Assembly: GCF_019649055.1 (NCBI RefSeq) | Contig: NW_026570230.1 | Coordinates: 1,488,001 to 1,552,000, forward strand | Reading direction: 5' to 3' | DNA from: Paramacrobiotus metropolitanus | Taxonomy: Eukaryota > Tardigrada > Eutardigrada > Parachela > Macrobiotidae | DNA length: 64,000 bases | In this document: in pieces, positions 22,268-62,100 of the stretch | Numbering within the stretch: the first letter of the stretch is position 1 | Layout: the number at the start of each line of letters is the position of its first letter | Translations under genes and position numbers: made by a program | Notes under the pieces: generated by a model | Seen by the model: only the letters and a program-made list of their open reading frames with translations | What the model was told of the DNA's origin: nothing | Database searches by the model: none

Positions 22268-23275
22268 TTATGTCATTAGCAAGCGTAACCTAGACATAAG
22301 TTCCTCATGATACGGTTCCGTGGAATTATCAGGCACGCTTGAAAACCACACCTTATCCAGAGCATCGAACACTGCGCCTTTGACGACGGCTATCTGGTGT
22401 TCCAGACGTCCCACATGCTCCTTTGACCGGAAGGCATAATGGTTGATGCGCAGTTCTTTTACGGACGGGCGAAGGGCGCGACCACCCCGGGGACGCAGAC
22501 AGCGGTGTATACCGGCCAGTCCACACATTTCCGGTCGCCAAATGGATTTCCCTTCAGCGTGGTGACAATCGCTGGCATTTACCGGTGGCGCACATACTTC
22601 CTTAAAACGCTGATTATAATCCTTATCCAAAGATTTGACTGGTCCTCGTTTTGTGTTTCTCGCGGTAAGTAACAGATGATTGTTGTGGAATTCAGTGATA
22701 ACTGTAATACAATTTTCATATGGATCCAGCGACAAGCGCATTCGGTTTTCTCTCTGAACGCCGCTGGACCCGAACCGAATAGTCGGGACATGAATTTCCC
22801 TAGTTGTTTCGTCTGTGGCGTACTGCCTTAGATATGCGGCAATCGTGTGATATTTGGGTGAGAAGGTAAACTCATCCACATCAGTGATCAGCAGCCATTG
22901 GCTGACATTGGACATTCGGGAGTTGCAGTGATCCAGTGCCAGCAACTGTGTCTCCAGGTAATCGTCATACCGGCGATTCGATGCCTGATTGTAGCGACGG
23001 AAATTGGCGGGGAAGACTTCCACGAGATCGGGATGACCCTGGTCGGCGTACAGACGGGGCAGGAGGTAAATGTCATCGGTGCTGTCATCGTCATAGAAAA
23101 TAAAATGATCGACACCTTGGATGCGGTGGAATTCGATCCATTCCAGGATGAGATGCAGCTCGTTTCTGATCATGGCACAAGCTGTGAGGGCATATTTTTT
23201 GTTGATGGACTCGTTGGCGGATATCAAGAGAAGATAAAGTAAAACAGTGATAAGCAATTGCAATAGACGTCGCAT
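22268..23275 (-). CDS. GT92-family (DUF23) glycosyltransferase
   Basis: Type II Golgi membrane enzyme of the family that includes nematode GALT-1, a galactosyltransferase that adds galactose to fucose on N-glycans. Single exon, 335 residues, ATG 23275 (the preceding GTG at 23278 is not the start). Seen: short cytosolic MRR, signal anchor (about residues 4-20), the family motif (C-A-MIRNELHLILEWIEFHR, GVDHFIFYDDDSTDD), the metal-binding DVD in LLITDVDEFTF (132-134), RFGSSG, and the C-terminal LRINHYAFRSKEH. Asn-X-Ser/Thr sites are present. It lies 1.1 kb downstream, in the direction of transcription, of the GT92-like gene on the same strand, probably a diverged tandem relative. Donor and acceptor sugars cannot be inferred. 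Confidence 0.92.
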   Translation of the reverse strand: MRRLLQLLITVLLYLLLISANESINKKYALTACAMIRNELHLILEWIEFHRIQGVDHFIFYDDDSTDDIYLLPRLYADQGHPDLVEVFPANFRRYNQASNRRYDDYLETQLLALDHCNSRMSNVSQWLLITDVDEFTFSPKYHTIAAYLRQYATDETTREIHVPTIRFGSSGVQRENRMRLSLDPYENCITVITEFHNNHLLLTARNTKRGPVKSLDKDYNQRFKEVCAPPVNASDCHHAEGKSIWRPEMCGLAGIHRCLRPRGGRALRPSVKELRINHYAFRSKEHVGRLEHQIAVVKGAVFDALDKVWFSSVPDNSTEPYHEELMSRLRLLMT

Positions 23276-24364
23276 CACACTTGACTTTCAGCACACCAAT
23301 GCCACACCGTAAGCAATAACTTGTAAATAACCATATAGGGAATACGGGTATACCGTACTTTTGTCAAGGAAAAACCTCTGTATATGAAAGGCAGATTTCT
23401 GCAACATACCTTGCTTGTGTATTTCTATGGTTGTTTCAACTTGTTTGTGCATGCGCCATATTATTAATTTCATAAAAGCTGAACAGTACGAAATTGCATC
23501 TCTTCGAAATGACTGGTACTGTCAAGAAGTTTAAAAGAATATTATTTTAATGACTACAGTAGCTTAAGGTGCAGGTAACAAGCGTAGCAATCATAAGGAA
23601 ATAAACGTAGTACAGTAATAAAAATTTTCAATGACCACTGGCCACTATGGATTACGTACCATAGTTTCCACTTTCCACGACCAGGCAAAAGCGGTGACCT
23701 ATCATAAAGGACACGGTACAAATGATGAATTGTTAGAACTTTAAAAGTTAATGGCAGTTACTAAATAGTTACTCGTATTTTGCGAGTGCAGAAAGTGACG
23801 GTCGCACTAAAGTTGTTCTGCTTTTTGCCCAGTGAACCTGTTCTGGTACATAGCTAGTGTCGCATCTATGACGCAAGCAATGATGGACCATCCCTGCCCC
23901 CAAAACGAGAACTAATTCTACAAGACTGGCCATGCGCATCCGATGACGTCTTGCAAGTTTCTACTTTGTAACCATGATGGTTATACGGTTGCTCTTAATG
24001 CCAGTTTCGCAATTAAGTCAGGTACAACATTTATTTGTTCCGACTATATTAGAGTGCACTGAGGCTGTGACTGAGCAGACAATTCATAACAGTTTTCCAC
24101 AAACAACTGCAAATTGTGGAGAACAACTGCTCTTTCCATTATACAACTTGTGTCCGCAATCCCGCGCCATGAAAACCGTGGAGCGATATAATATCATAAT
24201 ATACTCGTATTATACTTACTCGTGTAGTATTGCACCGTAGGACAGAACATGGATTCTGCTGATGTAAGATTTTATCTTGACCAACTAAAACACATCACAA
24301 AAATATATTTACCATCTTTTGCTCAGAATTGCAGACTGTAGTACGTATTACTACGTAATCTTGT
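23276..24364. other. Intergenic between two GT92 genes
   Basis: Two TACTCGTA copies (23770, 24202). No gene recognised; a plus frame at 23974-24240 is unsupported. Confidence 0.45.
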
Positions 24365-26411
24365 TTAAACTGATAGCGCTTCAGCTTCTAGGGTAGCATT
24401 TTCATGAGTACAACAGCTTCTATGCAACCATTTTGCCGTTCCGCGTGGCTCTTTGCATTCCACATAGAAACCTTTTCCACATTGAGATGAATTTCGGGAC
24501 TTGGTTTCATATTTGCAGCAGTATTTTAAATACTTTAGTTCGCCGTACGGATGAGGATGGGAAGCCGGACACATCACCTGCTGACCACTGTCCAGCGCCT
24601 GCTTATCACAATGCCGGTCGACACTCTGAAATACCTTAGGCTTGAGTTCCATGATGCTCTGACGAACTGGTGCGGCAAATCTCGACACCTTTACGGAGTC
24701 GAAAAAAGCGGGAAGTTTTTTGTCGGAGCCCGGTTGATCTTTAGAAAGAGTCCTGTCAACGTTATTGCGAAGCTTTAAAAGGCCAGTGCTTGTACAGCTT
24801 TGTTCGTCCGCACGCAGGTCTTTTCTTTCGGCGGAAATAACGTTTGGGTGACCAGGTTGCGGAAATAAGCAACGTGACATGTTGGATTTATCACAATATC
24901 GTTTTCCGCTGATTATGGTTGTGTATTCTTTTTCTTCGGGATTTGAATTTTCCTGCAACGATTGTGGCTGTACAAAAGATTTTCGCAATTTACTCGTACG
25001 CAAGAAGTATAATATAAATATCAACTATATGTATGTAGTAATGTACTATGTACTGCATTATAATGTAAAAATATGCTTTCATGCTTTGAAAGCATTGCTT
25101 TCGACCTTTTACATTAGTTATTGAAGCCTTAGAATTACTTTCAGGGATCAATTTTCTTTGATATCCTACACATTCTAATATTTTGTTGCAATAAAAAGTC
25201 ATGAATTTTATAACAACTAATAATTATTAGTTGTTATACAATTCATGACTATACAAATGTTATACAGTTCAATTGTTATACAACTCAGTTGTTTTACAAT
25301 TCATGATTCATGACCTTTTTATTATAATAAAAAAAACTAAAAATAAAAGTAAAACTAATAGAATTAAGGTGACCAATTAAGTGTGAACTCGGAGCTATTT
25401 CGAATAAACAAAACCCAAAAATATACAGTTGAATTTTTTATTCGGGCGCGTTATATCAGCTCTATATAATATAAATATTAACATGTAACAACCAATCGTG
25501 CTTGTATAATTTTAGAAGTATGTTCGCTATAACCATACCTCATGGTTTTGCTTTTCGAGATAATGGTTATAGCTATCCGTTCCATCCAGGTCGGCATACG
25601 GAAAGCGAAAACTGCTGGCAGCGATAACAAGGGGATAAAACGTATCCGTGGAATTTAAACTGGTGGGTTCGTACAAAAGGTCAACGCTTCCGGTGTAGGG
25701 ATTAGGGGATAACCACGCTCGAAACCGACTGCAGTCTTTTAACAATCCAAATTTAACGATGGGTATTTTTACAGCATAGCCGGCTGAATCTATTCTGAGC
25801 CTTTCGAAGTACTCCCTAATATTCCTGTATTGCGTCGAGTATACGAAGTGCCCGGGACTGGTCAACAGTATCCACTGGGACTGATGGCGGTAGCGAACAA
25901 AGCAGTCCACCATCGCTAAATTGGTCGCTTCGTGCTTTGTCATGTTCATTGCCGTGTAGAAGCGGGCTGGAAATACACGAACCTTGAGATTACGCCGGTG
26001 TTCATAAAAAAGTGGTAAATATTCCACCAGATCAGTGCCCAAAAAGTTGTACAATACAAAGTGATCGGCGCCTTGTAAGTGATGGAATTCAATCCATTCG
26101 ACTAAATAAGGGATGTTGTTTGTCACCATCATACACATGGTCAACTGGTATGGTACACTTCGGGAATGAGTGAAACCTGCGTCAGTTACACCACGCTTAT
26201 TTCTGTTAGCGTGTTTCAAAGAAATCAATCTGGAATGCAAGCCATGACCGGAACTAAAAGGAATATTACTTAAATCGGCAAACAAAGTACTATATAACAA
26301 CCACATTGACGACGATATGGCTACCAAGAAAGCACTTTTATATAATTTAGCACGAAGTTTTGCATTTGCAGAGCAAAATCGTTTTATGAACCATAATGTA
26401 AATCCCGGCAT
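24365..26411 (-). CDS. GT92-like protein, probable pseudoenzyme with Cys-rich tail
   Basis: Exon 1 is 26411-25539 (291 codons), exon 2 is 24967-24365 (200 codons plus stop), both phase 0. Exon 1 begins with a basic tail and signal anchor (about residues 25-45), then a GT92 fold: PYLVEWIEFHHLQGADHFVLYN, VRVFPARFY, QSQWILLTSPGHFVYS, KIPIVKFG, and YNHYLEKQNHE. Where active relatives have DVDEF this protein has SPGHF (185-189), and the DDDSTDD stretch is reduced to NFLGTD, so metal-dependent catalysis looks lost. Exon 2 adds about 200 residues with about a dozen cysteines and no recognised domain, ending in a cluster of C-C pairs (YCCKYE, SCCTHE). The frame is open throughout, so this looks like a maintained non-catalytic protein rather than a decayed gene. 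The join to exon 2 rests on splice sites and phase only. Confidence 0.72.
25199..25248. repeat. 50-bp palindrome with flanking diverged copies
   Basis: Arms TCATGAATT and TATAACAACTAAT mirror ATTAGTTGTTATA and AATTCATGA around a short AATT centre. Partial copies of the arm (GTTATACAA, AATTCATGA) recur up to about 25320. It lies inside the intron of the GT92-like gene and could be a small inverted-repeat element or a hairpin hotspot. Confidence 0.75.
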
Positions 26412-28290
26412 GATGTTATAGTAGTTAATTTGCTTGTGGATTATTTTGCTACCGGTACCAGCCTGTTAATATATGCAGCGCAGTTATACTGGCTTCGCAG
26501 TGTTGTAAATATTGTACGGTACAACACCACTCCTTGTCGCTCAAATGACAAGGCGTATTCAATGCGTTTGGTTGTTTGATTGAAGACCTCTTTTTTCAGC
26601 ACAAAATTTAGCTAAAATTATGTTGCTGCTGTTGCCATTTGTGCTTGCCTAGCCAGTTAAGTGTTTAATTAGATCACTTAAGGGTGCAAGTATATTGATG
26701 TAAGCATCTGTAGTTACTGTTTTATATGGTAATTATAAGCGTTGCAGTCACGGTACCGTGAAACCCAATAGCACTAACCAGAAAGCACATATGCACGCTT
26801 CTGCTACCTTTATGCACAGTAACACACCTGTGTGTAGAATCTGTAGATACAGCTTCTATAGCTCAAAACATGTAAGTCACAAAGGGTCACATAACGGCTA
26901 TGTTGTTTCCGGTATTTTAATAAAGATACGTACTACTTTTCGGTTCTGCAGTACGTACTGAAGAAAATTTAGGTTAAATTAAGCCATCATAGAGCCTACG
27001 TAGAGCTAGATTTCGAATAATCCTCCAGTTTCTCTGGCGAGACGGTTTACTATGCATGATTTCTCTTGCAAGTACAGATACCTACAGATAATACGTATAT
27101 GTTAATTAACTGTTTCCGTGGCTATCGTACAGCAGTCTCTGTCCCCAATTAGTAAACCTGCAGAAATGTTTCTTACGTCAGTTTTTAGCAACTGTAGCAT
27201 ACGAGTACTTACCGTTTTTGGTCAGTGTGCGCCCTGTCGGTTTTGCGTGCGCTGATGCGTCATGGTTGGTTTCTGCGTGGTCATGAGCAAATTATCAGGG
27301 TCATGCAAAATATGACGCAAACAAGAAGAAAACGCACTACTCCCAATGCGAAGCCTGGTTTATTTTAAAGCCAAAGGGCAGAACACAGACCGGATAGTGT
27401 CTCCAAAACTCTCAGGGCCAGCGTTTTTTACAGCTAGACATTGAACAATAGGTGTAGACTTTGAAAATTTGCACTCAATTTGTGCTCGTAATCGTATATG
27501 AAACTGAGGCTGCTTTGGTTATTTTATAAAAATGGCATTAAGATTTGAGCAACATCCAGTTTCGAAAAAAAACTGCGGATTTTCGTCGAAGCAGTAGAAG
27601 AGTTGAGAACTTCAGACGGATAATCTTGACCAGAACCACCACCAGAAAGCCTTTCCTATTTGCAGCCTCATCGTGTTGTCAGTTATGCATGTCCTCGGTA
27701 TATACAGATATGTATCTTTTATTGAAGTAGGAGTATAAACCATGAAATCACACAAGTAAACGTGTAATTTTCTAATTAATAAGCCGGGAAAGTAAAAGCC
27801 TGCTCACTGATCAAGTGGTTTTCGGTAATTACCTTGCCGCCGGAAATGCAGCAGTCGAATGAGAGCGCTCCACCAATCAGCGATATACAGTGGGCGGCAT
27901 TTGTGCCTGCGCACATTCATGCTTGTGTTTGAATAAAAGCGCTGACTCGGCAAATGCTATCGCCGGCTGTCTCGTGCATTCATGGAAGATCTACAGACCA
28001 GACAGACATCTGACAGCCGGTGCAGCATGGAATTGTGATAAGAGCCGATTTCATAATCGATGAAAAAGCTTTTCAGTCTGCTTTCTCACAGTCCAGTGGT
28101 TGTTTGTCAAAGGGTTTTCCAGCAAACCGCATTTACGCGCATTGCAGACTCACGCAACAAGATCTGACTCTTCCCGGGCAGAGCTCCGTCTGGACAACAT
28201 CGATTACTGTGGATCTTCTGCAGCGGGGAATTTTTCCACTTTTTAGGCACCACATTTATTGCGTGCTCTGATTCCCTTGCCAGCGGAAAA
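26412..28290. other. Divergent intergenic region before ELOVL
   Basis: Separates the minus-strand GT92-like gene from the plus-strand elongase. It holds a CCAAT/TATA-like pair near 27.9 kb and a TACGAGTA at 27200. Short frames here have no support. Confidence 0.45.
27873..27939 (+). promoter_or_regulatory. Candidate core promoter of the elongase gene
   Basis: CCAAT at 27873-27877 (context CACCAATCAG) followed 55 bases later by AATAAAAG (27932-27939), a TATA-like box. This would place a start near 27965 and a 5' UTR of about 325 bases before ATG 28291. Based on motif spacing only. Confidence 0.35.
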
Positions 28291-38645: not shown

Positions 38646-41600
38646 ATGGATATCCTCAGAAGACTGGCGCTTGCCTTTTGTATATGCGGGCTTATAACGG
38701 GATTAAATGCCGGTATGTAAAAAAATACATTGTATTATTGGCGTCTATTGTTTTGTTAAAATTCATTGCATCTTGCGCAGTTTATCGTTAAAAGGATGCT
38801 GTTTTATTACCCAGTTGCTCGCAAATAAGCTTCTTAGCCATACTCGTATAAGAAATTTACTTAACAGCGTACAATCTATTGATTAAAGCAGCAATAAAAC
38901 TCACACTTTGCATGAAAAATTCAGGCCAATAATATACATACAGATATGTATTTTTCTCTTTTTTTTGTGTTAATGTATTCAAGTTGCCGTGTTATTAGGT
39001 GTGTTAATGCCTATTTATTCTTCTAATGACATATATAAAGATACCTGATACTTCTTTCTTGTACAGTCTTACAGTCGCGACTTTTCATGTTTTGAAACTA
39101 ATATAAGTATTCGCAGTTTTCGTAATAAATTTTACGTGATGATCGTTGCTTCAGACGCCCAATACACCGGCAACAAGGGGTCAGTTTAACCGGGTTGAGT
39201 CTGCGTAGTGCATTCGTTGCCAATTAAACGTCGCTTATTAGATGCAAAATTAAAAGAACCACGTTTATAGACTTCCGCCTTGTCAATATTCGATGGTGCA
39301 TTTGTTTTTGAGTTGGTTAATGCCTCAGTTCAATTCACCAGTACGGTACTGTCAGTCAGGTATACTGAGTCGCGTCGTGTTGTTGTGTCATAATAGTTTA
39401 AGCGTTTCAGGAGCAATCTCCAAGTACTCGAAAACCCTTCCGGCATCGAACTAATTGTCTACAAGTACCAAGTACACTTTACAACAATCCGAACAATGAT
39501 GAGAACATTATGTAAAAGCGGAAAATGTTTTATGCACACCACCTCGAAAATAATTTTCAGTAACTGTACATGTACCGCAATAAAATTACAGAACATTCAA
39601 ATTAGCCGAAGCAAATTAAGCCAAACGGAACACGTTTGGCGACATTGTTGCATAATTATAAGCTTTATTCGTGGCGTATAGCCGGTAAACCAGGAAAGTG
39701 GCACTCCCACGAAATTGTTGTTGCGTGAATAACGACCGTCGATTAATTACTTTAAGAAGTTTGGTCTAGCGGAATTTCTGTATGTATTATTTTTTACAGG
39801 AAATCTCGAAGCGGAAACCAACGATCTCAAAAACACAGTGGATGACCTGGAGCCATCCCTTTCCTCCAACCTCTACACTGCCCTTTCCCAGAACGATGAA
39901 TTCCGCGCCGGCCACCAGACGGCCGATCTTCCCACCCCGGTGCTGGCCAAACCCAGCATCCAACGGCCCACCCATAAAAAACATCCCGTTCACGAAGAAC
40001 CGCTCCCCCACCTGAACGACCAATCCGACGTATCGCGCATCGTACCCACGCCCACCGCCCGCGTCATCATCGACCAGCACGAGGAAGTGGCCCATTCGCG
40101 GGAGAAGCGCTGTTTCACCTGCGGTCCCGGGATGATGGCCGTCCCGGCAAATAACGGCGGTATGGGCAACATGATGGGGAACGGTGGCGCCGTGATGGGC
40201 AACGACATCCAACCGGACGGCCGCTTCATCCAACCGGTCGGAGTCATGACCGGCTCGTCATCCGGCAGTTTCAGCGGTATGAGCGAATCTTCGGGAGCGT
40301 CGTCCGCGGATTTCGCTCGCATCCTGCAGATGTTCGGCGGCGGCAGTGCCAGTGACAGCTTCTCTCAGACGGACTTTGCCCGCATCCTGAATTCCATGGG
40401 CAGTCAGGGATCGAACATGGGGTCACGCCAGTCCGTCGGGATGTCCAGTGGTTTCCAAGCATCGTCGCTCTCGCAGTCGGAAATCAATCAGATTCTGAAC
40501 AGTCTCACCGGGATGACCGGAACAGGCTCGTCGGGATCGTTCACCAAAGGGGACTTTGCCCGGGTCTTGATTAACTTCGGGTCGACCGGTTCCGGTGGGT
40601 CGTTCTCCGGTTCTTCCGGCTCCGTTCAACAGGACATGAAGAGCGCGTTGGATCAGTTTGGCAGCGGGTCTTCTAGTAACTCCTTCTCCAGTGGTTCGTC
40701 CAACCAACAAATCTTTGCCAAGATCCTGCAGAGTGGTTCATCGGATTCGTCCAATTTCCAGCAGAGTGGTATGAGTGGGCAAAAGGTCTTCGTGCAACCG
40801 CAGCCCGTGCAGGTGGTGGTCCAGCCTCAACCGGTGCAAGTGGTACAACCAATTCCCATCCGTATTGTCTCCGGTGGGAACGACGCCCAGCCGGTGGGCA
40901 ACGACATTCAGCCGCAGCAAGTGGTTAATGTCAACCAGAACCAGAATCAGTATCAGCAGCAACAGTACAGCCAACAGCAGGTTCAGCAGCAGCAACAATA
41001 CCAGCAGAGCAATCAGTATCAACAACAGAATGTTAACCAGCAACAATATGTCCCGGTGCAACAACCCAATAAACTGTATATCAAACAAGCCGGTGGATCC
41101 GATGGGTACATGGTTTTCAGTACGGGAACATATACCTTGGCCGGTATGTAAATCAAAATTCGATAGAGATTATTAATTACTAGTACACCAACATATCTCA
41201 TTAAAATGAATCGTTGACATATATACTTCATTGGTAACTGAAAACAAACCTCGTAATATAAGCGCATTCCTTATACATTTTTTTAATTAACTTTTGTTAT
41301 TTTTCGTTCTACCATTTTTAAACTATTTAATCATCATTGCTGTTGCTAGAAGCGGTTTAAAATTTTGATTTTGTAACATTTGCTTTTTTTAAATTTCAGT
41401 TAGCTCATGCATTTTGTATGTTTTAGGTGCAATGAGCACACAGGTCAATAACGGCTACACCTACACAATGTCCACCTACACCCGCATCATCGACGCTATT
41501 CCCACCGTCGGCGTGATCACCCTGGTGCCGGTACAGACCTACTACGCCGGCCGCCTGATCCCCCAAGGTCAGAACGCCTACGGCGTCCCCAACGTCGGCA

Positions 41601-42723
41601 CCTTCACCCTGGCTGGTTCCATGTCGTACTTCCAGTCACAGGGCTACCCCTACACGGTCTCATCCTTTACACGCATTGTGGACGGTGCAGCGACATACGG
41701 CGCCATCACGCTGGCGGGTCTCCAGACGTACTTCAATAACCGCCTGCTGCAGCCGGGCCAGAATCCTTACGGTGTTCCCAATGTGGGCACGTATACGCTG
41801 AACGGCGACATGCAGACCATTATGATCAGCGGCTACCCGGCCACCGTGTCAACCTATACCCGCATTGTGGACGGTGTGGCGACGTATGGAACCATCACGC
41901 TGGGCCAGATGCAGACGTTCTATAATAACCGGCTATTGCCGCCGGGAACCAATCCATACGGTGTGCCAAACGAAGGGACGTACACTTTGGCTGGGGCAAT
42001 GACCTCTTTTGCGGATTCATACGGTAAGCAGCCGGACGTGTTTATAATCAACATTTGTATTTAATATCGGCGCATAGATTTCATGTCGTGGTTGTTGCAA
42101 TTTGCGCTTTAAATCAGCCGTAAAATCGGAAACGTTATACCGAAAACTATGGAAGCGCAGCGACGGAAACTAATGTCTTTACTAGACACGTTTTCATCTG
42201 TTTATGGCGATCATCAAATTTAATTATGCTAATTGTAAGCTCTTAACATTTTTAATTAATTATTGCAATAACACGTAAAATACATATATACGTAATGTTA
42301 TGTACTTTGTATATGTTAATGAACCTATATAATCGTTTAATACTGTTTGCAGGTTATCCGGTTACGGTCTCCTCGTACACTAAGGTCATCAACGGTCGTG
42401 CTACCTTCGGCGCCGTGACCAAAGGGACACAGATGACCGTGTACAATGGCCAAACGATGCGCTATGGGGAGAACATCTTCGGCGTGCCGAATCAAGGAGT
42501 GTACACGATCCCCGGTGGACTGAGTTACGTCGATGTCAACGGGCAGACGCAGACCCGTACCACCGTAACGAAGATCGTCAACGGCCAGCCAACCTACGTT
42601 ACCCTAACCGTTATGCCCATGCAGACCATCTTTGTTCCGAACGACAGTGGGCAGACCATGTTCCTCCAGGGCGGAGGCGATAAGATCGCCGGCGGAGGAG
42701 GTGTCTGCCAGGTGTGCGGATGA
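38646..42723 (+). CDS. Large secreted multi-repeat protein (GTYTLAG family)
   Basis: Unrecognised family; likely extracellular structural material. Exons 38646-38712, 39800-41143, 41427-42023, 42353-42723; 792 residues. Exon 1 is a signal peptide (MDILRRLALAFCICGLITG). Residues about 23-126 form an acidic/Pro-rich propeptide ending in REKR, a furin-type site, immediately followed by CFTCGPGM. Next come Gly/Ser-rich segments with five degenerate DFA(R/K)(I/V)L-x-x-(F/M)G helices, then a Val/Pro/Gln part (VQPQPVQVV) and a Gln/Asn/Tyr-rich low-complexity stretch (about 400-445). The C-terminal 320 residues are five repeats of about 63 residues: G-T-Y-T-L-A-G, then Y-T-V-S-x-Y-T-R-I-V-D-G-x-A-T-Y-G-x-I-T-L, then QTYYNNRL and NPYGVPN. 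It ends CQVCG. The repeats join across introns in phase 1. A smaller relative lies on the other side of POLE2. Confidence 0.88.
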
Positions 42724-45309: not shown

Positions 45310-48300
45310 ATGGCGCACATCATCATAGCAAATTGCTTCCAACGGTTACCGTTGATGTGCTTGACTGTGGGATTTGTGTGTTTATGGCCTAAGACATCAG
45401 CATCCGGCGACTCTCAGCGAACTCCATTTGTCTCTCATTGTAAGTTTAGTGCCGCCAAATCGTCAGTATCAACCGCTGTCAAGTATACATAAGTACTACA
45501 TTACCAAAAGAAAATAAATGGGCACTTGATAATTAATTTACATTAAACTTGGTTGAGTTAATGCTGGTGAGCGATGTGAGATCAATCATAAGGTTCAGGT
45601 TTACTCTGATCTGTAAAACTCTTATGAAATACGGAGTTCTATGCGGGCCGCTGTTGGTGCTGTCGTTTAACTAATTAATGGATGGATTGCAGATTCGAGT
45701 AATACTTCCGCGTTGAATGATACCGGTGCATTGTCTCTTATGCAATCCGGTTACCCGTCCACATCGATCCAATGTAAAACAGGTTTCGTCACCAATCTCA
45801 GCGGGAAATGCAGCTTACATGATTGCAGTACTGACCTTTTTTTATTTGGAGTGACATTACCGTCACAGGATCCTTTCCCAACACAGTGTCACGATGCTGC
45901 ATGCGATGTAGTGCCAGATTCCAATACGACCTCGTGTACGTTTTCCGAATGCGACCCCATGCCGCTTATTAATACTCAACCGGATGGAAGGAAACGACTG
46001 GAAATCGTATGCAATACTTCCTCATGCCTGGGTTTCGGGGAGATCAACTGCACCGTTTTCGCTAATCTACAATTACCCATACACAACGGTCAGTTTTGTT
46101 TGTATTATCAACGGGTTTCAAGTCAACGTTAGCCTTAGAAGGTTATTATTTTTTTAGCCGTAAAAAGTTATAAAAATTTTAGCTAAATAAATAAATAAAT
46201 AATGTTAGCCTTAAAAGGCTATAAAAATTTTTCTGGAATTTGACAAAATTCTCTGTATTCTTGCCGTTCTATGCATTGAGCATTCAAGGCAAAAAGCGGG
46301 GGTCCAATTATGCAGATGGTCAATTCAGTAGAGAACTGCCGAACACGGATGAGCGCAGCAACTGTTCATGTATTTAATAATCTTTTTCATCCTTTTCTAC
46401 GAGTTTAGGAGGCACGCACCAAAGGAAACAATCAGTTTTCTTTTCTTAGATAGTTATGGCTGGCACATAAATGGAACGAACGAACTTGAACTGGAAACAA
46501 CAAGCACTCGTGTCAGTATTGACACTACCACCTGCAACACAACCGCACAAGCAGCGGATGACGATATGACCGCTTCACCGGAACACAGCAGTGACAGCAC
46601 TGATACAACCGTAACTGTAAAGTCCACTGCTCTCATAAACGCGACTAACAATTCAACTGTTCCTACACAAGCCCCCACTAACAATTCGCAGCCCATGGGG
46701 TCGAACACAACCACAGTGAGCACAGCACAGACGGAGGTCACCAATTCCACTAAACCAACGCCGCGTCCTACTGAAACAACCGCTTTTACAAGCCCAAAAA
46801 CACTACCACCAACCGCTGAAGCGGATTCCAATTCCCTAACGATTATCACAATCAGCGTGACCTTTTCAATTATTCTCACCATTATGGGAGTTTGCTTGTT
46901 TATCCAACTATGCCCCAATAAAGTAAGTGCACCTGGTTTACTTGCATATTATGTTTGCCGAAACAAAACGTTTTGTTCCAGTTTGACCGAATACGGGAAC
47001 GTATCAAATCCAAAACGCCGAAACCAGACTTCTACGCTCTGTATAAGAAGGTGACACGGACTAAATATAACGACTACAGCAAATCCGGCATGCCATTGAA
47101 CTATAAGAAAAAGCTGTTCGCACATTATGAAGTTCCCAAATGGCGGTTGACGGTCGACAGTAAGCTTGTTTATCACAAGTACTAGTAATAGGTTGGCAAA
47201 AGCCGACGTAAACTGGATCATTTGTTTTAGAATCGCAAGTCATCGGCATCGGTCATTGTGGCAAAGTGTATCGTGGCCGCTTCATGGTGGTTCAAGGAAA
47301 GAAACAGACAGAGAAAGGCGGCAACGGCACGGAATACCAGGAAGTTGCAGTGAAAGATCTTCGATATAAAACCGACGAAACATTGCGTGCAGAGTTCTTT
47401 AAAGAGATGGAATGCGCCGTAAAGATTGGTCGACATTTAAACATCGTTAACCTCCTTGGTTTAATACTGAAAGGTCAGCGGCACATTGTCAGCTTAAAAA
47501 CTGTTTTGACCTTTAGTTTTATTGTTTAGACGAACTCTGCATGGTTATGGAGTATTGTGCACTGGGATCGCTCGATCGGTGCTTACGCGACAATCGGAAG
47601 AAGCTTCTTGGATTAAGTATGTCAAGCGACAGCGATACATCATCGAATAGCAAGACAAAGTCAATGCGCGGGACGTTATTCACACTGGATGATCTGGTGG
47701 ACTTCTGTTTCCAAATTTGCCGCGGAATGGCTTATATTTGTTCCAAAGGGATCATTCATCGGGACCTAGCCACTAGAAATGTCTTACTTGACGGAGAATT
47801 AACAGCAAAAATCTGTGATTTTGGAATGGCACGCGACGAAAGCGAATATACACTGGAAAGGTTAAATGTACGATTTTGGCACTATGTGCAAATGTGCAAA
47901 TAGATCTGATTCCTGACCTGCGCATCATTTACTATTTTGAAATGTTTAAAGGTTCCTTTGCCGATTAAGTGGATGGCTCCGGAAGCCATCCTCGATAAGC
48001 GCTTCACCATGAAATCCGATGTATGGTCATTTGGTATCGTCATCTGGGAAATCTTCACATTCGCTGACAACCCCTACGCTGAAGTATTCCGGGAAATGGA
48101 TGTGTCAGCTTTGGTTCGGTTTTTACAAACCGGCAACCGATTGCCACGTCCGGAAATCATAAGCGACGAAATGTACTTTTAAATGCTTCTGATTTTGGCG
48201 TAAAGTCATATTTATTAGATGTGGTTTGTTGCCAGGTTTGATCTGATGAGCTCCTGCTGGGCATGGAAGGCCGAGGTGCGCCCCGATTTTAGCACGCTCG

Positions 48301-48428
48301 TATCTAGCCTGGAGCAACTGGTTTCCGTTGACAAACGGGAATATTATATTGACTGTGATATAAGCAATTCCGCTGCTAATGAGGAAGTGATTTTGAAGAA
48401 TCTGGTCGAGGATGTCACTACAGTTTAG
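45310..48428 (+). CDS. Receptor tyrosine kinase, copy 1
   Basis: Single-pass surface receptor with an intact tyrosine kinase; ligand and known subfamily not recognised. Exons 45310-45439, 45693-46088, 46450-46922, 46982-47159, 47231-47473, 47530-47867, 47952-48172, 48236-48428; 723 residues. Order: signal peptide (residues about 1-33), one 10-Cys module (exon 2), a Thr/Ser/Asn mucin-like stalk (exon 3), transmembrane helix (about 302-327), basic juxtamembrane, kinase. Kinase residues: GIGHCGKVYRG (398-408), Lys434 in VAVKDL, helix-C Glu in KEMECAVKIGRHLNIVNLLG, HRDLATRN (550-557), DFG (570-572), Tyr580 in the activation loop, KWMAPEAI, SDVWSFGIVIWEIF, CWAWKAEVRPDF. A short Ser/Lys insert lies between the lobes (about 499-521). 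The C-terminal tail is brief, with two Tyr in REYYIDC. The exon 7 acceptor is AAAG. Tandem paralogue follows at 49286. Confidence 0.88.
46128..46231. repeat. Direct repeat with AAAT run in intron 2 of receptor kinase 1
   Basis: GTTAGCCTTAGAAGG at 46128 and GTTAGCCTTAAAAGGCT at 46204, each followed by a TATAAAAATTTT-like stretch, with a (TAAA)n run between. The second copy can form an AGCCTTAAAAGGCT hairpin. Confidence 0.6.
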
Positions 48429-49285
48429 GAGGAATTTCTAGTCGGGGTGTAAAATTTTTTGTGATGTGCTTTCGCGGCAAATGGTCTGTGAATTTTTACT
48501 GGAACTAAAACATGTATACCTATTTTTGTTTATTTTTTAATGCTTTTGTCTTTCGCGATTGCACTGGTGTGATTCTCTTTTATGGCTTTACTTTTCTAGT
48601 TCAGGATCCATGGAAAAATTATCTGCATATTCTAAATTTCTAACCAGTGTAGAGTACGGTATCTCTTCGTTTACCTTAATGTGCAATTAATCAAGCATTT
48701 CGAAATGCGCATAATATTAAGACACAATTAAGCTTGAATGACATCTTTGGACAATGTGACTTGTCGGGTGGTTTGATGCATCTACCTGTATTTATCATAC
48801 TTTGATTAGGCCTACTCATGTCCGATTATTGCTCATCAAGCTACCTAACCATAAGTATGAGTAGCATTTCCATAATGTTATTAAGATACAGTACGTGCCG
48901 GTGTTTAGAACAATCCTATCGATGCGGTGCTACAGTTCATTATTATCCTGAAAATCATAAATACAGATAAACCATCAACGGTATCTAAAGTCCACTGTTA
49001 TTGAAAAGTTAAGCAGCGTTTATTTTAAGGTGATTTGATAATTGCCAAGTTTTGTGCAGCTGAGGGCAAGTGTTCCTTTACGTAAGGGAAAGAATTTTAT
49101 GGCATACTCATTTGTATATTTTTGTCAGATCACTCGAACGGATATTATTTATTTTAGCGAATGAATTAAGCGTTCGTAATAGTTCTCTCTATATATATAT
49201 ATTAATAAAAAGTGCGATTTGCAGCAGACACAAATATTTGAATTGTGTCAAGCTTGTAAGCCAAGTCCTCCAACTTCCGCGTAAC
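48429..49285. other. Intergenic between the receptor kinase pair
   Basis: An AT tract (about 49187-49212, TATATATATAT then AATAAAAAG) lies about 75-100 bases before the next ATG and may serve as its TATA element. No other feature recognised. Confidence 0.4.
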
Positions 49286-52200
49286 ATGCAAAATGTCACA
49301 ATAAATTATTTACGACTGCAGAAATTAATATGTTTGGGACTAATATGTTTGTGGATAAGCGCATCCGTGGTTTGTGGTAACATCGCATCTAGTCTATCTG
49401 ACGAGAAACCCCGCAAATCTATAAAAACGTCACCAGTACATCGCAGACGAAATGATGTTTTCCCGCAAAGTGCCAACCGTAAGTCCAGTTTGTATTTATC
49501 TGACAATTATAATTTTGAAATTGGAACAGAAATGAACTCGTGCGCAAACGCCTTATATTTCTATCCGATTAATTTGACGATCTTAACCAGTAGTACGTAA
49601 CGCACCGGTTTACGATTTGTAATTGCAGAAACTACGACCATTTCCACGGCGAATATTGTCGGCTATAACAGCACAGGGTTCCCATCCATGCCTAGCCGGA
49701 ACTTAATTTATCCACCCCCCACCTGGATGTGGTGTGAAGTCTTGGCTCCCAATAATGGCAGCGGCGGATGCACCTTACAAGCTTGTTACTCACAGATGAA
49801 CGAAGTTGGAGTGTTTGTGGGACAGCCGACGGAGACGCACTGTTGGTTCACGCCGCCATGTTCATCCGGGTCAACAAATCCAGACTTTGCATGGTGTTCA
49901 TTTACCCAGTGCACCAATCAGGGGTTTTTAGAAAACCGACGAGATACTTTACATGTCTGCTGCAATAGTTCGTCGTGCTCAAACATCACAGGGACCATCG
50001 AGTGTGAACTACTGTTGCCGACGATACCTACTACCACCAGTATGCCCACTGACTATGTTTTTATAGGACTGAATTCGAATTCGTAATAATATAAAAGCAC
50101 CATAAGGTCAATTTTTGAAATTTCGTAATGGCAAATTTTGGGCTACTTTTTTGTCTGTGGCTCCCGTAATATTGCGTTCGAATTTTTTAATGAGAAAGGT
50201 CACGGATTGTAATTAACTTCATTGCCTCGCAGAAAATTAATATTAACCGGTAAAATACGAGTATCAACCGTAAGTAAAGTTTTTGATTAAAATAGGTAGT
50301 TTTAGCAAAACCAGCAAAAATTCTTGAGCCCGAACAAGTAGGAATCGGTTAAAGGATAATCATAATTTTTTACCGATCAACCAAAAAGGTTTTGGATTTC
50401 AAATACGGTACGTAATGCGCCGGTTTAATCCGTCTGTAAATTACAGACACAACAGCAGTTTCTATCGCTGACCACACCAGCACACGATTCCCATCCACGA
50501 CTCATTCGGGGATAATTTATCCAGATTCCACCTGGGTGCGATGTGACGTCGTGCCTTCCACAAATGGCAACGGCGAATGCACCTTGCAGCCCTGTTACTC
50601 CTACGTTAGCGACATTGAAGTGTTTGTTGGACAGGCCACGGAGACGGACTGTTGGTTCAGGTCGTCGTGTGCTTCCGGATTACCAAGCGCGAACATTTCA
50701 AACTGCACCTTCACTCAGTGCACAAACCAGGGTTTCGGGGAAATCGTTTAAGTGTCCACTGCAGTAGGTCGTCGTGTCAAAACATCACAGGGACTATCCA
50801 GTGTGAGCTGCAGCTTCCAGTGCCCGCGATCACCAGTATGTCTGTTAAATATGCTGTATAAGAATAATATATAATAATAGGAAACAACATAAGGTCAATT
50901 TTTAAAATCTTCATGTTGATATATTTCGGGTTATTTGTTTCGCGTTTGAGCTGTCTGTATAACGAATAGTCGCGGATTCACGGATTGTGATAACTTCGTT
51001 ACCTTGCAGCAAACTGATATTAACCAGTAAAATACGAGCACCAAGCGTATTAGTTTTTAGCAAACCCGGTGATAGCGAAAATTCTTGAGCCCGCGCAAGT
51101 GGGAATCAGTTAAAGGTCAATCATAATTTTCACCTGTCAATCAAAAAAAGTTTTGGATTTCAAATACGGTAAGTAACGCGCCGGTTTAATCCGTCTGTAA
51201 ATTGCAGAAACAACTACCGTTTCTACTACGAATATCTCCGGTTATACCAGCACACAATTCCCATCCACGACTCACTCGGGGTTAGCTTATCCGGACTCCA
51301 CCTGGGTGCGATGTGACGTTGTACCTTCCACAAATGGCGACGGCGAATGCACCTTGCAGCCCTGTTACTCCCACGTTAGCGACATTGGGGTGTTTGTTGG
51401 AGAGGCCACGGAGACGCGCTGCTGGTTCAGGTCGTCGTGTGCGTCCGGATTACCAAGCGGGAACATTTCAAACTGCACCTTCACTCAGTGCACAAAGCAG
51501 GGTTTTTGGGGAAATCGTCTGGATGTCCACTGCACTAGGTCGTCGTGTGCAGACTTTACAGGGACAATTCAATGTGAGCTACGACTGCCGATATCCACCA
51601 CCACCAGTACGTTCATTGAATAGGAGTCTGCAGGACGAAAGCCAATAAAATCAAGTTCTGATATATTCTCTTGGTATTTACTGTATTTATACCGTTTTTA
51701 TATTTTGTTATTCTGACTTGTAGATATAGTATATGCTCGTATGTATCATATATATTCTTACAGGAAGTACTACTCACAGTTTGGACTGGGAAACCCTCGC
51801 ATCAACCCAATCGGAGTCGGTTCCGTCGCCAACAACTGCTGCCAGTGAACCTTTGATTTACGACACTACGCAGTTGATGTTCAATGCGACAGTTTCCGTG
51901 GGCGACAACGCTAACAGTACAGTAGTTCAGCTTTCTACTACTGCCTCACATGGAACAGACAACGAAACCTCTGTCTCTGTACCGGCAGTAAATATGACCA
52001 CACCAATTACCACCACCAGCACACGGCCAATCGGCAAAAATTCTACATTGGCGACAACAGCGTCACCGGCGACAACAACGTACCGTACACCAATAACGAA
52101 ACCCAACATTGAGGAAGACACCAATTCCGCAACCATCGTTGCTATTAGCGTGACCTTTTCGATCATCCTCTCTATCATGGCGGTGTGCTTGTTTATAAAG

Positions 52201-53717
52201 TTTTGCCCAAAAAAAGTTAGTAAAAAATACAGAGCTAATAATTCTGCGATGTATAATGTATTACGCGTTTAAATTACAGTTCGACCATGTACGAGCACGT
52301 ATTAAATCAGGAACGAGAAGACCAGACTTCTCCTCGTTGTATAAAAAAGTTACGCGATCAAAAGGCAACGATTACAGCAATCCTGGGATACCACTACATT
52401 ACAAAAAGAAGCTGTTTTCACATTACGAAGTTCCCCGTTGGCGGTTGACAGTGGACAGTAAGGACCATAATCAAAATTTCACCGCGCTGTTTTAACTGAG
52501 ACATGCGAACGATGTAGAGTCACAGATTGTCGGCATCGGTCACTGTGGAAAAGTTTATCGTGGTCGCTTCATAGTTGTACAAGGCAAGAAGCAAGCGGAA
52601 AAGAGCGGCAATAGCACCGAATACCAGGAGGTGGCAGTAAAGGATCTCCGCTATAAAACCGACGAAACACTGCGCGCTGAATTTTTTAAAGAGATGGAGT
52701 GCGCCGTCAAGATTGGTCGACATCTGAACATTGTCAATCTCCTTGGATTAATACTGAAAGGTCAGCATGACGTTACCCTGTTCAAACGTGTTTTAACATC
52801 TAGTTTTATTTTTCTAGATGAACTCTGCATGATCATGGAATACTGTGCACTTGGGTCACTCGATCACTGTTTACGTGACAATCGGAAGAAAATGCTGGGA
52901 CTCAGCATGAACAGCGACACGGCGATTGCAAGTAATACAACAAAGCCATTGCACGGTGCGCTGTTTACACTTGATGATCTGGTGGATTTCTGTTTCCAAA
53001 TCTGCCGCGGAATGGCGTACATTTCTTCGAAAGGCATTATTCATCGTGATTTAGCGACCAGGAATGTTTTACTCGATAGCGAATTGACGGCAAAGATTTG
53101 TGATTTCGGAATGGCGCGCGACGAAAGCGAATACACACTGGAAAGGTCAAACGTAAGGAAAAGCAGTATGACTCACATTTCATATTATTTTCAAATCAAA
53201 TACGGTTAACTGCAATGAAGGTTCCGTTGCCGCTGAAGTGGATGGCTCCGGAAGCGATTTTTGACAAGCGATTCACTGAAAAATCCGATGTGTGGTCTTT
53301 CGGTGTGGTCATCTGGGAGATTTTTACCATGGGCGAAAATCCTTACGCGGAGATATTTCGGGAGCTGGATATTGCCTTGCTATTAAAATTCCTACAGACG
53401 GGCAGTCGGCTGCCACGTCCAGAAGCTATTGGCGATGAAATGTATATAAACTGCATTTTCAAACTTTCGGCGTTATATCTCATCCTTGACCTTTCTCAGT
53501 ATGAGCCATCTGTTTTAGGTTTGGTCTGATGAGTTCCTGTTGGGAATGGAAAGCCGAAGCTCGTCCTGGCTTCGACATTCTTGTTTCGAGTTTAGAACAT
53601 ATGGTTTCCGTAGACAAACGGGACTACTATGTTGACTGCGACATGACGAATACCGCTGCTAACGAGGAAGTGATTGTGAAGAGTTTAATGGACAACGCTG
53701 AATTCGAAGCTACTTGA
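49286..53717 (+). CDS. Receptor tyrosine kinase, copy 2, with triplicated ectodomain exon
   Basis: Tandem paralogue of the gene at 45310. Exons 49286-49478, 49629-50039, (50447-50835), 51208-51606, 51764-52215, 52280-52457, 52518-52760, 52818-53152, 53221-53441, 53519-53717. With the bracketed exon left out the frame is intact at 876 residues. Order: signal peptide, 10-Cys modules, Thr/Ser-rich stalk, transmembrane helix (SATIVAISVTFSIILSIMAV), juxtamembrane, kinase. Exons from the juxtamembrane on equal copy 1 in length or nearly so (178, 243, 335, 221, 199 bases). Kinase residues are all kept: GIGHCGKVYRG, VAVKDL, HRDLATRN, DFG, KWMAPEAI, SDVWSFGVVIWEIF. The module exons and flanking introns repeat with a period of about 760-820 bases. 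The middle copy has lost one base and carries an in-frame stop; being phase 1-1 it could be skipped cleanly. The kinase splice AG|GTT after AATGAAG parallels copy 1. Confidence 0.87.
50447..50835 (+). pseudogene. Frameshifted middle copy of the 10-Cys module exon
   Basis: This copy is 389 bases where an intact copy needs a length of 3n, as in the neighbours (411 and 399). Alignment with the third copy places a one-base loss at about 50736-50742 (GGTTTCGGGG against GGTTTTTGGGG), producing TAA at about 50749. Both splice sites (TTACAG before, A|GTATG after) are still good. Either a dead exon, a skipped exon, or an assembly error. Confidence 0.7.
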
Positions 53718-59156: not shown

Positions 59157-62100
59157 CTATATGAGCCGCTCTTCCGGCGGTGGTTTCAGAACGTAGCCCA
59201 TCTCCACGCGGGAGCCGAAGATTTCCTGGCGACTGGGAGAATATGTACCGCGTTCGGCGCGACGCTTTCGCGCCGTCACGCAGAAGGCCGCCAGCGCTCC
59301 GATTACCACCAGTCCGACAAAACTCAAAGTCACACCGAGAATTATTGCTAAATTGTCTGGTCCGGTGCCGATGGCTGTGGCCTGATAAACCTCGCACCTG
59401 CAAAGAGAATTCCCAACATAAAAAACAGGAAAGTCATCCGAAAATAAATAACCCAATACTTATTCACTCCCAAATAATTATTAAAATAATAATTAAAGTT
59501 GAATTATTCATATTAAAAAATTTATTTCCAACATCCACTACCATTCCCAAAAACAACTGAATTACTATTTACCGTTATTATACAATGTGTCTTAGTTGAC
59601 AATGTGACAATGAAATAATATTTTCTAAACAATTTCATTAAATTTCAGTGCTGCTATATTAAACATCTCAAGTAGCTATGTCGAAAAATAATATTCTCCG
59701 AGAAAGTACGAATTCATGCATAAAACTGCACTGGTACTGACCATTTGCCGGTGTATCCCTCAGTGCAGTTACTACAGTAGGCCTCCGTCACATTTCCCTC
59801 CTGGCAGTTCAACAGGCCTCCATTATGACACTGCACCTCCTCGCAGCCGCCAACCCGGACCCGTGGATCAATACGGTTCCGCTTGCCGGCCTCACCGCAC
59901 ACCGCGCCGTCCACATCCGGATCACACTGGCATTTATAATCGTTCCACAGATCAACACAGTGCCCCATCCCCTGGCACGGCTGCTGGCCGCACACATCCA
60001 CCCCTTTACATCCGTATTCCATGCCCACCATCTTGGCCATCTTCACCATCCGTTTCACACCGGCCACCGCCTTACTCTTCACCTCCGGGAAGACCGGCAG
60101 TAGAAAACTCCCCAGCCGGGCATCATCCAGACACCCAATGAAGCCCCCACCCACCTGCACGACTGCGTTGTCCTCCTGGAGGATCTGGCTGAGGGAGATC
60201 CTGGGGACGTCTTGACTGAAGGACTGGCCATCGATGGCGATATTCATGGTGGCCGGGAGGAATTCCGCTTCGAATGTATGCCATACGGAATCGTTGATCG
60301 GGCGGTCGATGGTGATGGCGGAGGGGGACGCCGAAAGGTGGTATTCAATCTGGATGCGAGAGGCTTTGATGTAGATCTTCAAATAATGTTGAGAACTGAT
60401 GAGTTGTAGCAGGTTGGCTGCGTCCGTTAAGCGGGTGCGAAATCGGAAGGACACTTTACGGAATCGGGCTGATGTATTGGGTTGGGGAATACGCTATAGA
60501 GGAATGCGTGTCCAGGAAGCTAATGTTTGTTGCACCTGAAAACGTTAAAAATCAAATGATATAGCTCGTAACAGCTGCACTTCTCATCTACAGACCTGAG
60601 ACCACAGTAAAAAACTGACAAGCGATTACCCATAAAGGTGAATCAGACCGCTAAACGATATGCAACCGCATTATCAACTGTATTGCGTCCTTAACCCTGA
60701 GCTTAATCCTTACGTACACATAATACACAGTATGGAGTGCTAATTAAATTAAATTCCCAAATTTTTTATGATGATTTTATCCAGATTTATTCCTAGCCAG
60801 AAATACATGAAATAAACATTTTCGCAATCGACGAAATAAACATTTTCGCAATCAATTTTTAATTTATGCCATCACAAAATGGTACATCTGCCGTACATTC
60901 ATATTCATTTTCCAATTTTTTGCATTGCGCATGGGGCGACGGACATTCGTTGGACAGGCAAAAATTGGGCAGATTGCACAGCTTCCCGCGAAATGCAACT
61001 GGGCAAACACATCTGAAAAACACCGAAAAAAAAACCCATCAAAATTACATAACGACATCCTATCGACAGGGTAAAAAGACTCACCGGAAGTCGTTCCACG
61101 TGACTTGGCACGATCCACCATATTCACAGGGATTAACCTTACAGTTGTCATCACTCTTCACCCCCTCCGTGACCTCGTTCACCGTCACATCGCGCAGCAA
61201 CGCCGGCAGTCCCTCCAACATTCCCGCATCCGACATCTCGACGAACGGCACTAGTTTCCCGTTCAGCCGGACATCCTGCAGTATCCCTTTGAAGAGTCCT
61301 CCATCCACGACATTATCATCGTTCACGCCGTTGGAGATCTGGCGCTTAACCTTGTGCGGCCGCAAGGCGCCGCGCACCGCCCCACCCAGCAGCAGGACCT
61401 CGGCATTCAAGGGACTGGCGGAACCCAGCGGCTGGAACGCCATCTTCCCGCCGTCCACCCACATGCGGATCATGGTGTGGACACGCTCCACGTGGACGTA
61501 GTAGTAGTTGCCATCGCTCAGAAATTTCGGCGGTCCATGGATGGTGTCCACGGAGTCGGTCAGTTTGACCTGCAGGACCAACTGTCCCTGGATTAAGCGA
61601 AGGAACATGTTGCTGCTGCCCGATAAGGAGCCAATGTAGAAGATGAGCGTGTTGTTTTCTAGGGTGCGCAGACGGAAAGAGATGTTGCCATTCAGTTCCA
61701 GAATGTTGCGGTCCGCAGATGTTAAATTAACCGCAATTAGACTTTTGGTGGCCTCGCGATTAAATGTCCCAGCGGTTATTTCTGGATAACGAGAAAAATA
61801 CATTGTAAATAACGTGAAACCGGTTAACTCGATAAAAAATAAAATTCTGCAAATTTATAAACCAAAGTGCTACAAGGCATGCCAAACTTTCGAAAAACTG
61901 TATGATTTAATAGAGAAAAAAATAAAGTTTCAAAAAACGAAAGCTCATTTAAGCGCGAAATTATTTGAATGGACAATAGAGCAAAATAATTCAACAACAA
62001 AACACTTAATAACTTTCATAAGCGTGCACTTTCCGAACACAAGAGCACTTTGTTTTTTCTGTGTTTGAAACACGCAACCGATTAGCGAACAAGCGGCGAC

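Follow-up and report, generated by a model that had tools for sequence, protein, structure and literature searches.

A tandem pair of tardigrade receptor tyrosine kinases with a ten-cysteine ectodomain module, probably part of a class III/V-type radiation with exchanged ectodomains

Venus kinase receptors (VKRs) are described as invertebrate receptor tyrosine kinases (RTKs) whose ectodomain, a Venus flytrap, is unusual and whose tyrosine kinase is insulin-receptor-like (PMC3703292, PMC4026697). Exchange of domains outside a conserved kinase has been discussed for ALK, Ret and other holozoan RTK families (PMC8662651). When eight tardigrades were surveyed, Dorsal, Dif and Relish were not found and the intracellular parts of the Toll pathway were reported lacking; by the same account, PGRP homologues occur only in eutardigrades, Richtersius excepted, with extracellular and transmembrane PGRPs scored apart, GNBP1/3 and PGRP-SA/SD were not detected in the species surveyed, and the survey closes by asking whether tardigrades have novel immune mechanisms (PMC7056985). 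A list of protein families that have congruent domains and were seen only in two tardigrades includes 27 kinase clusters (PMC5531438). No PGRP- or GH16-bearing RTK, and no RTK expansion in tardigrades, appears in the titles and abstracts of the open-licence literature among the matches listed. The subject here is a tandem pair of predicted RTK genes, RTK1 and RTK2, of the tardigrade Paramacrobiotus metropolitanus, located in a 64,000-nucleotide stretch of contig NW_026570230.1 (positions 1,488,001 to 1,552,000), called the window throughout. The pair probably belongs to a large tardigrade radiation of PVR/VEGFR/PDGFR-type (class III/V) RTKs in which the immunoglobulin (Ig) ectodomain was repeatedly exchanged, for beta-glucanase-like GH16, peptidoglycan recognition (PGRP), astacin, MAM-like or LRR-like domains and, in this pair, for a module with ten cysteines.

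Both genes are located on the plus strand. RTK1 (45310-48428; 8 exons, 723 aa) is open from ATG to stop across GT..AG introns in its spliced model, and RTK2 (49286-53717; 9 exons, 876 aa) is open from ATG to stop when the middle one of its module exons is skipped. From the N- to the C-terminus, each displays a hydrophobic N-terminus, judged by eye a likely signal peptide, one or more ten-cysteine modules, a Ser/Thr-rich stalk, a single transmembrane (TM) helix and a kinase, the predicted layout of tandem type I RTKs. The Pfam family PK_Tyr_Ser-Thr matched the RTK1 kinase at 1.7e-9, 1.2e-26 and 4.8e-23 (exons 5, 6 and 7 scanned singly) and the RTK2 kinase at 9.9e-38 and 9.3e-23 (two open frames scanned). 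The landmarks GIGHCG, VAVK, HRDLATRN, DFGMAR and APEA are all present in both proteins, which are predicted to be active RTKs by their glycine loop, VAVK lysine, HRD, DFG and APE motifs. Between the two genes, the cytoplasmic part has a nonsynonymous divergence (dN) of 0.12 and a synonymous divergence (dS) of 2.3, and the stalk a dN of 0.66. Because this dS is near saturation, the idea that the pair stems from an assembly artefact or from two haplotypes was rejected. A sequence-only reading of the window had placed a tandem RTK pair with intact kinases and a mucin-like stalk at 45310-53717; its coordinates proved exact, the spliced models are open with catalytic motifs in both copies, and the Ser/Thr content of the last 130 residues before the TM helix (Table 1) bears out the stalk.

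In a search of PDB, an EGFR chain occupies the first row because it holds two kinase copies whose scores add up; below it, the best matches of the window kinase were FLT3, FGFR, PDGFR, KIT and VEGFR. A first tree was built from 37 rows, comprising 8 human references, the window pair and 27 rows of this genome, whose loci carry L numbers. L016 (the same gene as L032b), L047 (near-identical to L043), L028 (JAK-like) and the divergent kinases L021 and L026 were removed before tree building, and L014, L015, L019, L020, L023, L024 and L053-L058 have no rows of their own. In this tree, the window pair lies within a clade of 26 rows, all from this genome (97/97), whose sister is L052 (99/99). This locus has Ig exons (I-set at 2.4e-13; a VEGFR-1-like Ig at 3.2e-4, below cut-off), and the nearest matches of its kinase exon are PDGFR, VEGFR1 and CSF1R. 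The 24 clade rows besides the pair carry GH16 (7), MAM-like (6), PGRP (4), astacin (2), LRR-like (1) and crystallin-like (1) ectodomains, with 3 unread. In a second tree, built also without the long branches L043, L022 and human EGFR, the clade holds 24 rows (93/84), L052 joins it at 100/99, and the window pair groups with PGRP-, MAM- and LRR-bearing rows (100/99).

The sister of the window clade is L052 and not the human VEGFR2/KIT pair, which adjoins; FGFR1, RET, TIE2, INSR and SRC lie away from it, as does EGFR in the first tree, the only one to include it. Topologies in which the pair groups with human VEGFR2 and KIT, or with human FGFR1, to the exclusion of the tardigrade kinases were rejected by the approximately unbiased (AU) test (p 0.0005 and p 0.0003, respectively). 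In most loci, the kinase profile matches break and restart near columns 79, 185 and 255, a pattern that shared introns would be expected to give. Among the exceptions are L018, L032a and L041, whose first two pieces are in one frame, and L052, with one additional break. A kinase outside the known RTK families is not what these trees recover: the pair sits in a class III/V clade with L052 as its sister. The sequence-only reading had named two findings that would count against it, a kinase inside a known family and a module matching a named domain, and half of this was found, because the kinase groups in a known class. Class III/V receptors have five to seven extracellular Ig domains, and no Ig match was found in the window ectodomain exons scanned; because of this, the pair is described as derived from class III/V and not as a PVR.

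The module follows a common plan, C-x11-C-x4-C-x18/20-C-x4/5-C-x10/11-C-x4-C-x13..19-C-x4-C-x7/8-C, that recurs in four exons. The single RTK1 copy, m1, reads C-x11-C-x4-C-x20-C-x4-C-x10-C-x4-C-x19-C-x4-C-x7-C, and the last RTK2 copy, m2c, reads C-x11-C-x4-C-x18-C-x5-C-x11-C-x4-C-x13-C-x4-C-x8-C; m2a keeps the plan with one extra cysteine (11 in total), and the first seven cysteines are readable in the first frame of m2b. The plan cannot be put down to chance because it recurs in exons that are 31, 55 and 85% identical to m2c. None of the ectodomain exons of RTK1 and RTK2 matched a Pfam family at its cut-off, Ig included; the stalk/TM exon of RTK1 matched Psg1 at 0.0051 and m2c matched a viral glycoprotein family at 0.087, both below cut-off and both taken as chance matches. 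The module had no match in NCBIfam, nor did its profile among PDB sequences. AlphaFold models from the alignment of four rows reached a mean predicted local distance difference test (pLDDT) score of 37.0 for the full and 45.3 for the trimmed module and were unusable for a fold search, because values this low give meaningless matches. In a genome-wide search, which starts with a loose first look that diverged copies may escape, the module was found in the window only, save for weak matches at three sites, C305 (E 0.04), C115 (0.38) and C179 (0.39). These are read as chance: L006, the region fetched for the C305 match, scored 0.19, no better than unrelated frames such as a PGRP exon (0.12) or an antisense frame in L055 (0.048), and the other fetched loci gave nothing above chance level. 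The module thus appears to match no named domain and is so far seen only in this pair. On this point the sequence-only reading holds: it had described a ten-cysteine module without a recognisable domain in what looked like a lineage-specific receptor family, and the profile search from the four exons supports it. At a dN of 0.75 between m1 and m2c, against 0.12 in the cytoplasmic part, the module evolves more quickly than the kinase side, as a sensor would be expected to; the stalk is also fast.

The family around the pair, in which the same kinase is located beneath many sensors, is a stronger finding than the pair itself; several of these sensors are akin to recognition proteins for bacterial or fungal cell walls. 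In the assembly searched (169,799,020 bases, 533 contigs), the kinase exon matches listed form at least 103 kinase clusters, the window pair included, some of which are not RTKs. An upstream neighbour was counted when found on the same strand, at most 7 kb upstream and with no other listed kinase between. By this rule, GH16 precedes the kinase in 21 of the 103 clusters and PGRP in 13 among the matches listed, while 69, the window pair among these, have neither; the random expectation is ~0.1 for each, by arithmetic that ignores the clustering of matches. The count used 40 GH16 matches genome-wide and 48 matches of a PGRP protein query, versus 1 match given by PF01510. Reading covered 29 regions, 8 around strong matches and 21 around clusters without a GH16 or PGRP label. 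Four were set apart, namely L028, which is JAK-like (SH2 at 5e-8), L055, which looks non-receptor, the Ig receptor L052, and L056, which is unclear, with no Pfam match in the frame scanned; the ectodomains of the other 25 are collected in Table 1.

Matches above Pfam cut-offs were obtained for GH16 in L027 (2.9e-15), L048 (3.4e-8), L041 and L057 (both 9e-5), for astacin in L042 (2.4e-21) and L049 (8.8e-21), and for Amidase_2 in L031 (7.4e-6), with L034 below cut-off. The GH16 domain of L027 also matches laminarinases at about 5e-29, and the PGRP of L029, just below the Pfam cut-off (25.8 of 26 bits), matches solved PGRPs, PGRP-I-alpha at 2.8e-27. A TM stretch shares one open frame with the end of GH16 in L044 and L048 and is found within the 396-aa frame holding GH16 in L027; all four PGRP loci have a TM-like frame between the PGRP and kinase exons. 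The canonical GH16 ExDxxE motif was present in 0 of the 9 GH16 loci, in gene-strand frames of at least 60 aa, a weak test because introns may split the motif; its absence would be in line with binding rather than cutting. The window pair shares both features of the radiation, a kinase inside the clade and an ectodomain other than Ig.

Further observations were made on individual sister genes. The PGRP-RTK genes of L029, L030, L031 and L034 (C89, C63) seem to have their starting Met immediately ahead of the PGRP domain; within 1.5 kb upstream, L030 and L034 have one hydrophobic ATG frame each, and L029 and L031 none. Minus-strand PGRP exons are found beside PGRP-RTK genes at C63:751590-751980, 785194-785379, 790705-791374 and 798567-798959, as if in divergent pairs. 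In L042 and L049 (C111, C139), astacin-type metalloprotease exons with an intact HExxHxxGFxHE motif precede a TM exon and a kinase, the latter a member of the window clade. L043 (C146:277700-283500) and L047 (C151:255500-261000) are near-identical RTK genes, either a recent duplication or a retained haplotype.

Several points weigh against a radiation with exchanged ectodomains as the origin of the pair. Support for the swapped-ectodomain clade is only 93/84 once the long rows are removed; the ectodomain is unread in 3 of the 26 clade rows of the first tree (L018, L022, L025); and the clade is enriched for window-like kinases, because sister genes were picked up through their likeness to the window kinase. 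Some labels are softer than others: the PGRP exons of L030 have no Pfam match and rest on the PGRP protein query, GH16 is below the Pfam cut-off in L044, L051, L058 and the first gene of L032 and assigned by eye only in L053 and the second gene of L032, and all MAM, LRR, CUB and crystallin matches are below their cut-offs. RTK1 and RTK2 are themselves predicted models, read from genomic sequence, and the module is defined by its sequence pattern. Nothing ties the window pair itself to microbes, and the immune idea rests on its sisters. In an alternative view, the two genes are developmental growth-factor receptors of PVF/VEGF-like ligands, their ectodomain a heavily diverged Ig or an addition beside Ig, with no microbe sensing. 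Drosophila Pvr has growth roles, and the window kinase is of the PVR/VEGFR type. Drosophila Pvr is also described as regulating immune signalling (PMC2766254). Such receptors seem quite unlikely here, given that the Pfam scan of the ectodomain exons gave no Ig match, that ten conserved cysteines in C-x4-C pairs are unlike the Ig plan, and that a separate Ig-type receptor, L052, is still present in the genome.

The module could also be a known small disulfide-rich fold, the three-finger domain of Ly6/uPAR or activin receptors, missed by sequence profiles. By eye, its CW-x4-C and (in m2a) CC-x4-C stretches resemble that superfamily. However, when the trimmed module was aligned by hhalign with five human Ly6-type and four human activin-receptor-type ectodomains, the scores of 8.7 and 10.8 were reached or beaten by 53/60 and 28/60 cysteine-keeping shuffles, respectively, and no match came from Pfam (at cut-off), NCBIfam or PDB. 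A three-finger domain is not supported by scores no better than those of shuffles, and we regard it as unlikely.

The middle module exon of RTK2, m2b, is frameshifted. At 389 nt, it is not a multiple of three and has one base fewer than the neighbouring module exon; its first frame hits a stop near 50750, beyond which the remaining cysteine pattern resumes in another frame. Skipping it keeps the reading frame because the exon is of phase 1-1. Before the shift, m2b differs from m2c by a dN of 0.076 and a dS of 0.241, and therefore appears to have been under purifying selection in the past, so that the shift seems to be either a lesion of recent date or an error of the assembly. The published Paramacrobiotus sp. 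TYO assembly is described as polished and based on Nanopore reads (PMC8277472), which leaves room for a residual indel. Of the module copy counts in the sequence-only reading, the single copy in RTK1 stands; RTK2 does have three module exons, but it reads open with two. The one-base frameshift in 50447-50835 might instead mark early pseudogenisation, leaving RTK2 a decaying gene and RTK1 the only functional copy. Decay seems very unlikely, since the other RTK2 exons are open with intact kinase motifs, the lesion is in a skippable exon that could carry a residual indel, and the cytoplasmic dN has stayed low despite a dS near saturation.

If RTK1 and RTK2 are class III/V-derived receptors with an exchanged ectodomain, we infer the following mode of action. 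The module, held on a Ser/Thr-rich and probably O-glycosylated stalk, would bind a ligand away from the membrane, and ligand-driven clustering would bring the kinases together for mutual phosphorylation of the tyrosine in the activation loop (DFGMARDESEY). Juxtamembrane and tail tyrosines would also be phosphorylated, and docking there would start PVR-like downstream signalling. The pair perhaps serves environmental or immune recognition. Neither a PGRP nor a GH16 domain was found by Pfam in the ectodomain of the pair, such pattern-recognition domains being seen in sister genes only, and microbial ligands for the family would be a guess carried by those sisters and not by the pair. A bolder proposal, which is doubtful in our view, is that this tardigrade wired microbial pattern recognition onto a PVR-type kinase, with dozens of PGRP, GH16 and other-sensor receptors as an innate repertoire in a phylum reported without the NF-kB arm of Toll/IMD, and with the pair as a branch bearing a wholly new ten-cysteine recognition fold. 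If true, PGRP and GH16 on tyrosine kinases would be a direct, testable answer to the question of novel tardigrade immunity, receptors that bypass Toll and IMD, and a striking case of one kinase chassis with many sensors within one lineage. The module, without a recognised relative, is a fair target for structure work.

Table 1. Features of RTK1 and RTK2 (window coordinates) and ectodomains of sister genes (locus labels)
Feature	Location	Strand	Basis or scope
RTK1 exon 1, likely signal peptide (by eye)	45310..45439	+	ATG, hydrophobic N-terminus, donor GTAAGT
RTK1 exon 2, ten-cysteine module m1	45693..46088	+	open frame, Cys spacing
RTK1 exon 3, Ser/Thr-rich stalk and TM helix	46450..46922	+	hydropathy 2.43; 38% Ser/Thr over 130 residues before TM
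RTK1 exon 4, juxtamembrane	46982..47159	+	spliced model
RTK1 exons 5-8, kinase domain and tail	47231-47473, 47530-47867, 47952-48172, 48236-48428	+	Pfam PK_Tyr_Ser-Thr on exons 5-7; spliced model
RTK2 exon 1, likely signal peptide (by eye) and linker	49286..49478	+	spliced model
RTK2 module exon m2a, 11 Cys	49629..50039	+	spliced model, Cys spacing
RTK2 module exon m2b, 389 nt, frameshifted	50447..50835	+	splice sites present, symmetric phase 1-1, in-frame stop near 50750
RTK2 module exon m2c, 10 Cys	51208..51606	+	spliced model, Cys spacing
RTK2 stalk and TM exon	51764..52215	+	hydropathy 2.65; 39% Ser/Thr over 130 residues before TM
RTK2 juxtamembrane exon	52280..52457	+	spliced model
RTK2 kinase exons and tail	52518-52760, 52818-53152, 53221-53441, 53519-53717	+	Pfam PK_Tyr_Ser-Thr; spliced model
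GH16 ectodomain	L027, L032 (two genes), L041, L044, L048, L051, L053, L057, L058		among 25 regions
PGRP ectodomain	L029, L030, L031, L034		among 25 regions
MAM-like ectodomain	L033, L038, L039, L040, L045, L046		among 25 regions
Astacin ectodomain	L042, L049		among 25 regions
LRR-like ectodomain	L050		among 25 regions
Crystallin-like region	L043, near-copy L047, L054 (weak CUB match)		among 25 regions

Elsewhere in the window, the minus strand carries two glycosyltransferase family 92 genes (22268-23287 and 25527-26465), two similar open reading frames (ORFs) resembling tandem paralogues (7224-7604 and 9664-10401, the latter without a Pfam match), and two laminin G ORFs, one also with EGF, of an extracellular-matrix-type gene (59714-61854). 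At 39733-42723, a Gln/Ser-rich ORF without a Pfam match is followed by an ORF with the internal repeat TYTRIVDGxATYGxITL; a Lipocalin_4 match in this interval reaches 4.3e-5 (24.8 bits versus a cut-off of 22.4), with no single stretch passing. A lipocalin search gave two matches that look fatty-acid-binding-like by eye and say little as a tardigrade marker.

Compared with known systems, the pair is close to the PVR/VEGFR/PDGFR class III-V RTKs, with which it shares the kinase domain and, through the Ig-bearing L052, the sister of the whole radiation; unlike them, it carries a ten-cysteine module on a Ser/Thr stalk with no Ig match. VKRs likewise pair a tyrosine kinase with an unusual ectodomain, but the window pair lies away from INSR in the trees, and the ten-cysteine module is far smaller than a Venus flytrap. 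The sister RTKs recall the membrane-bound PGRPs and the GNBP/beta-glucan recognition proteins of arthropods in bearing PGRP and GH16 ectodomains. In arthropods, PGRP and GNBP domains signal through Toll/IMD adaptors or proteolysis, whereas in the sister genes they sit on a tyrosine kinase, and the window pair has neither domain. Holozoan RTK ectodomain shuffling offers a precedent for the exchange itself, although the exchanges described there are at the level of families and not a radiation within one genome, and the string 'tardigrad' has 0 occurrences in the main text of that source (PMC8662651).

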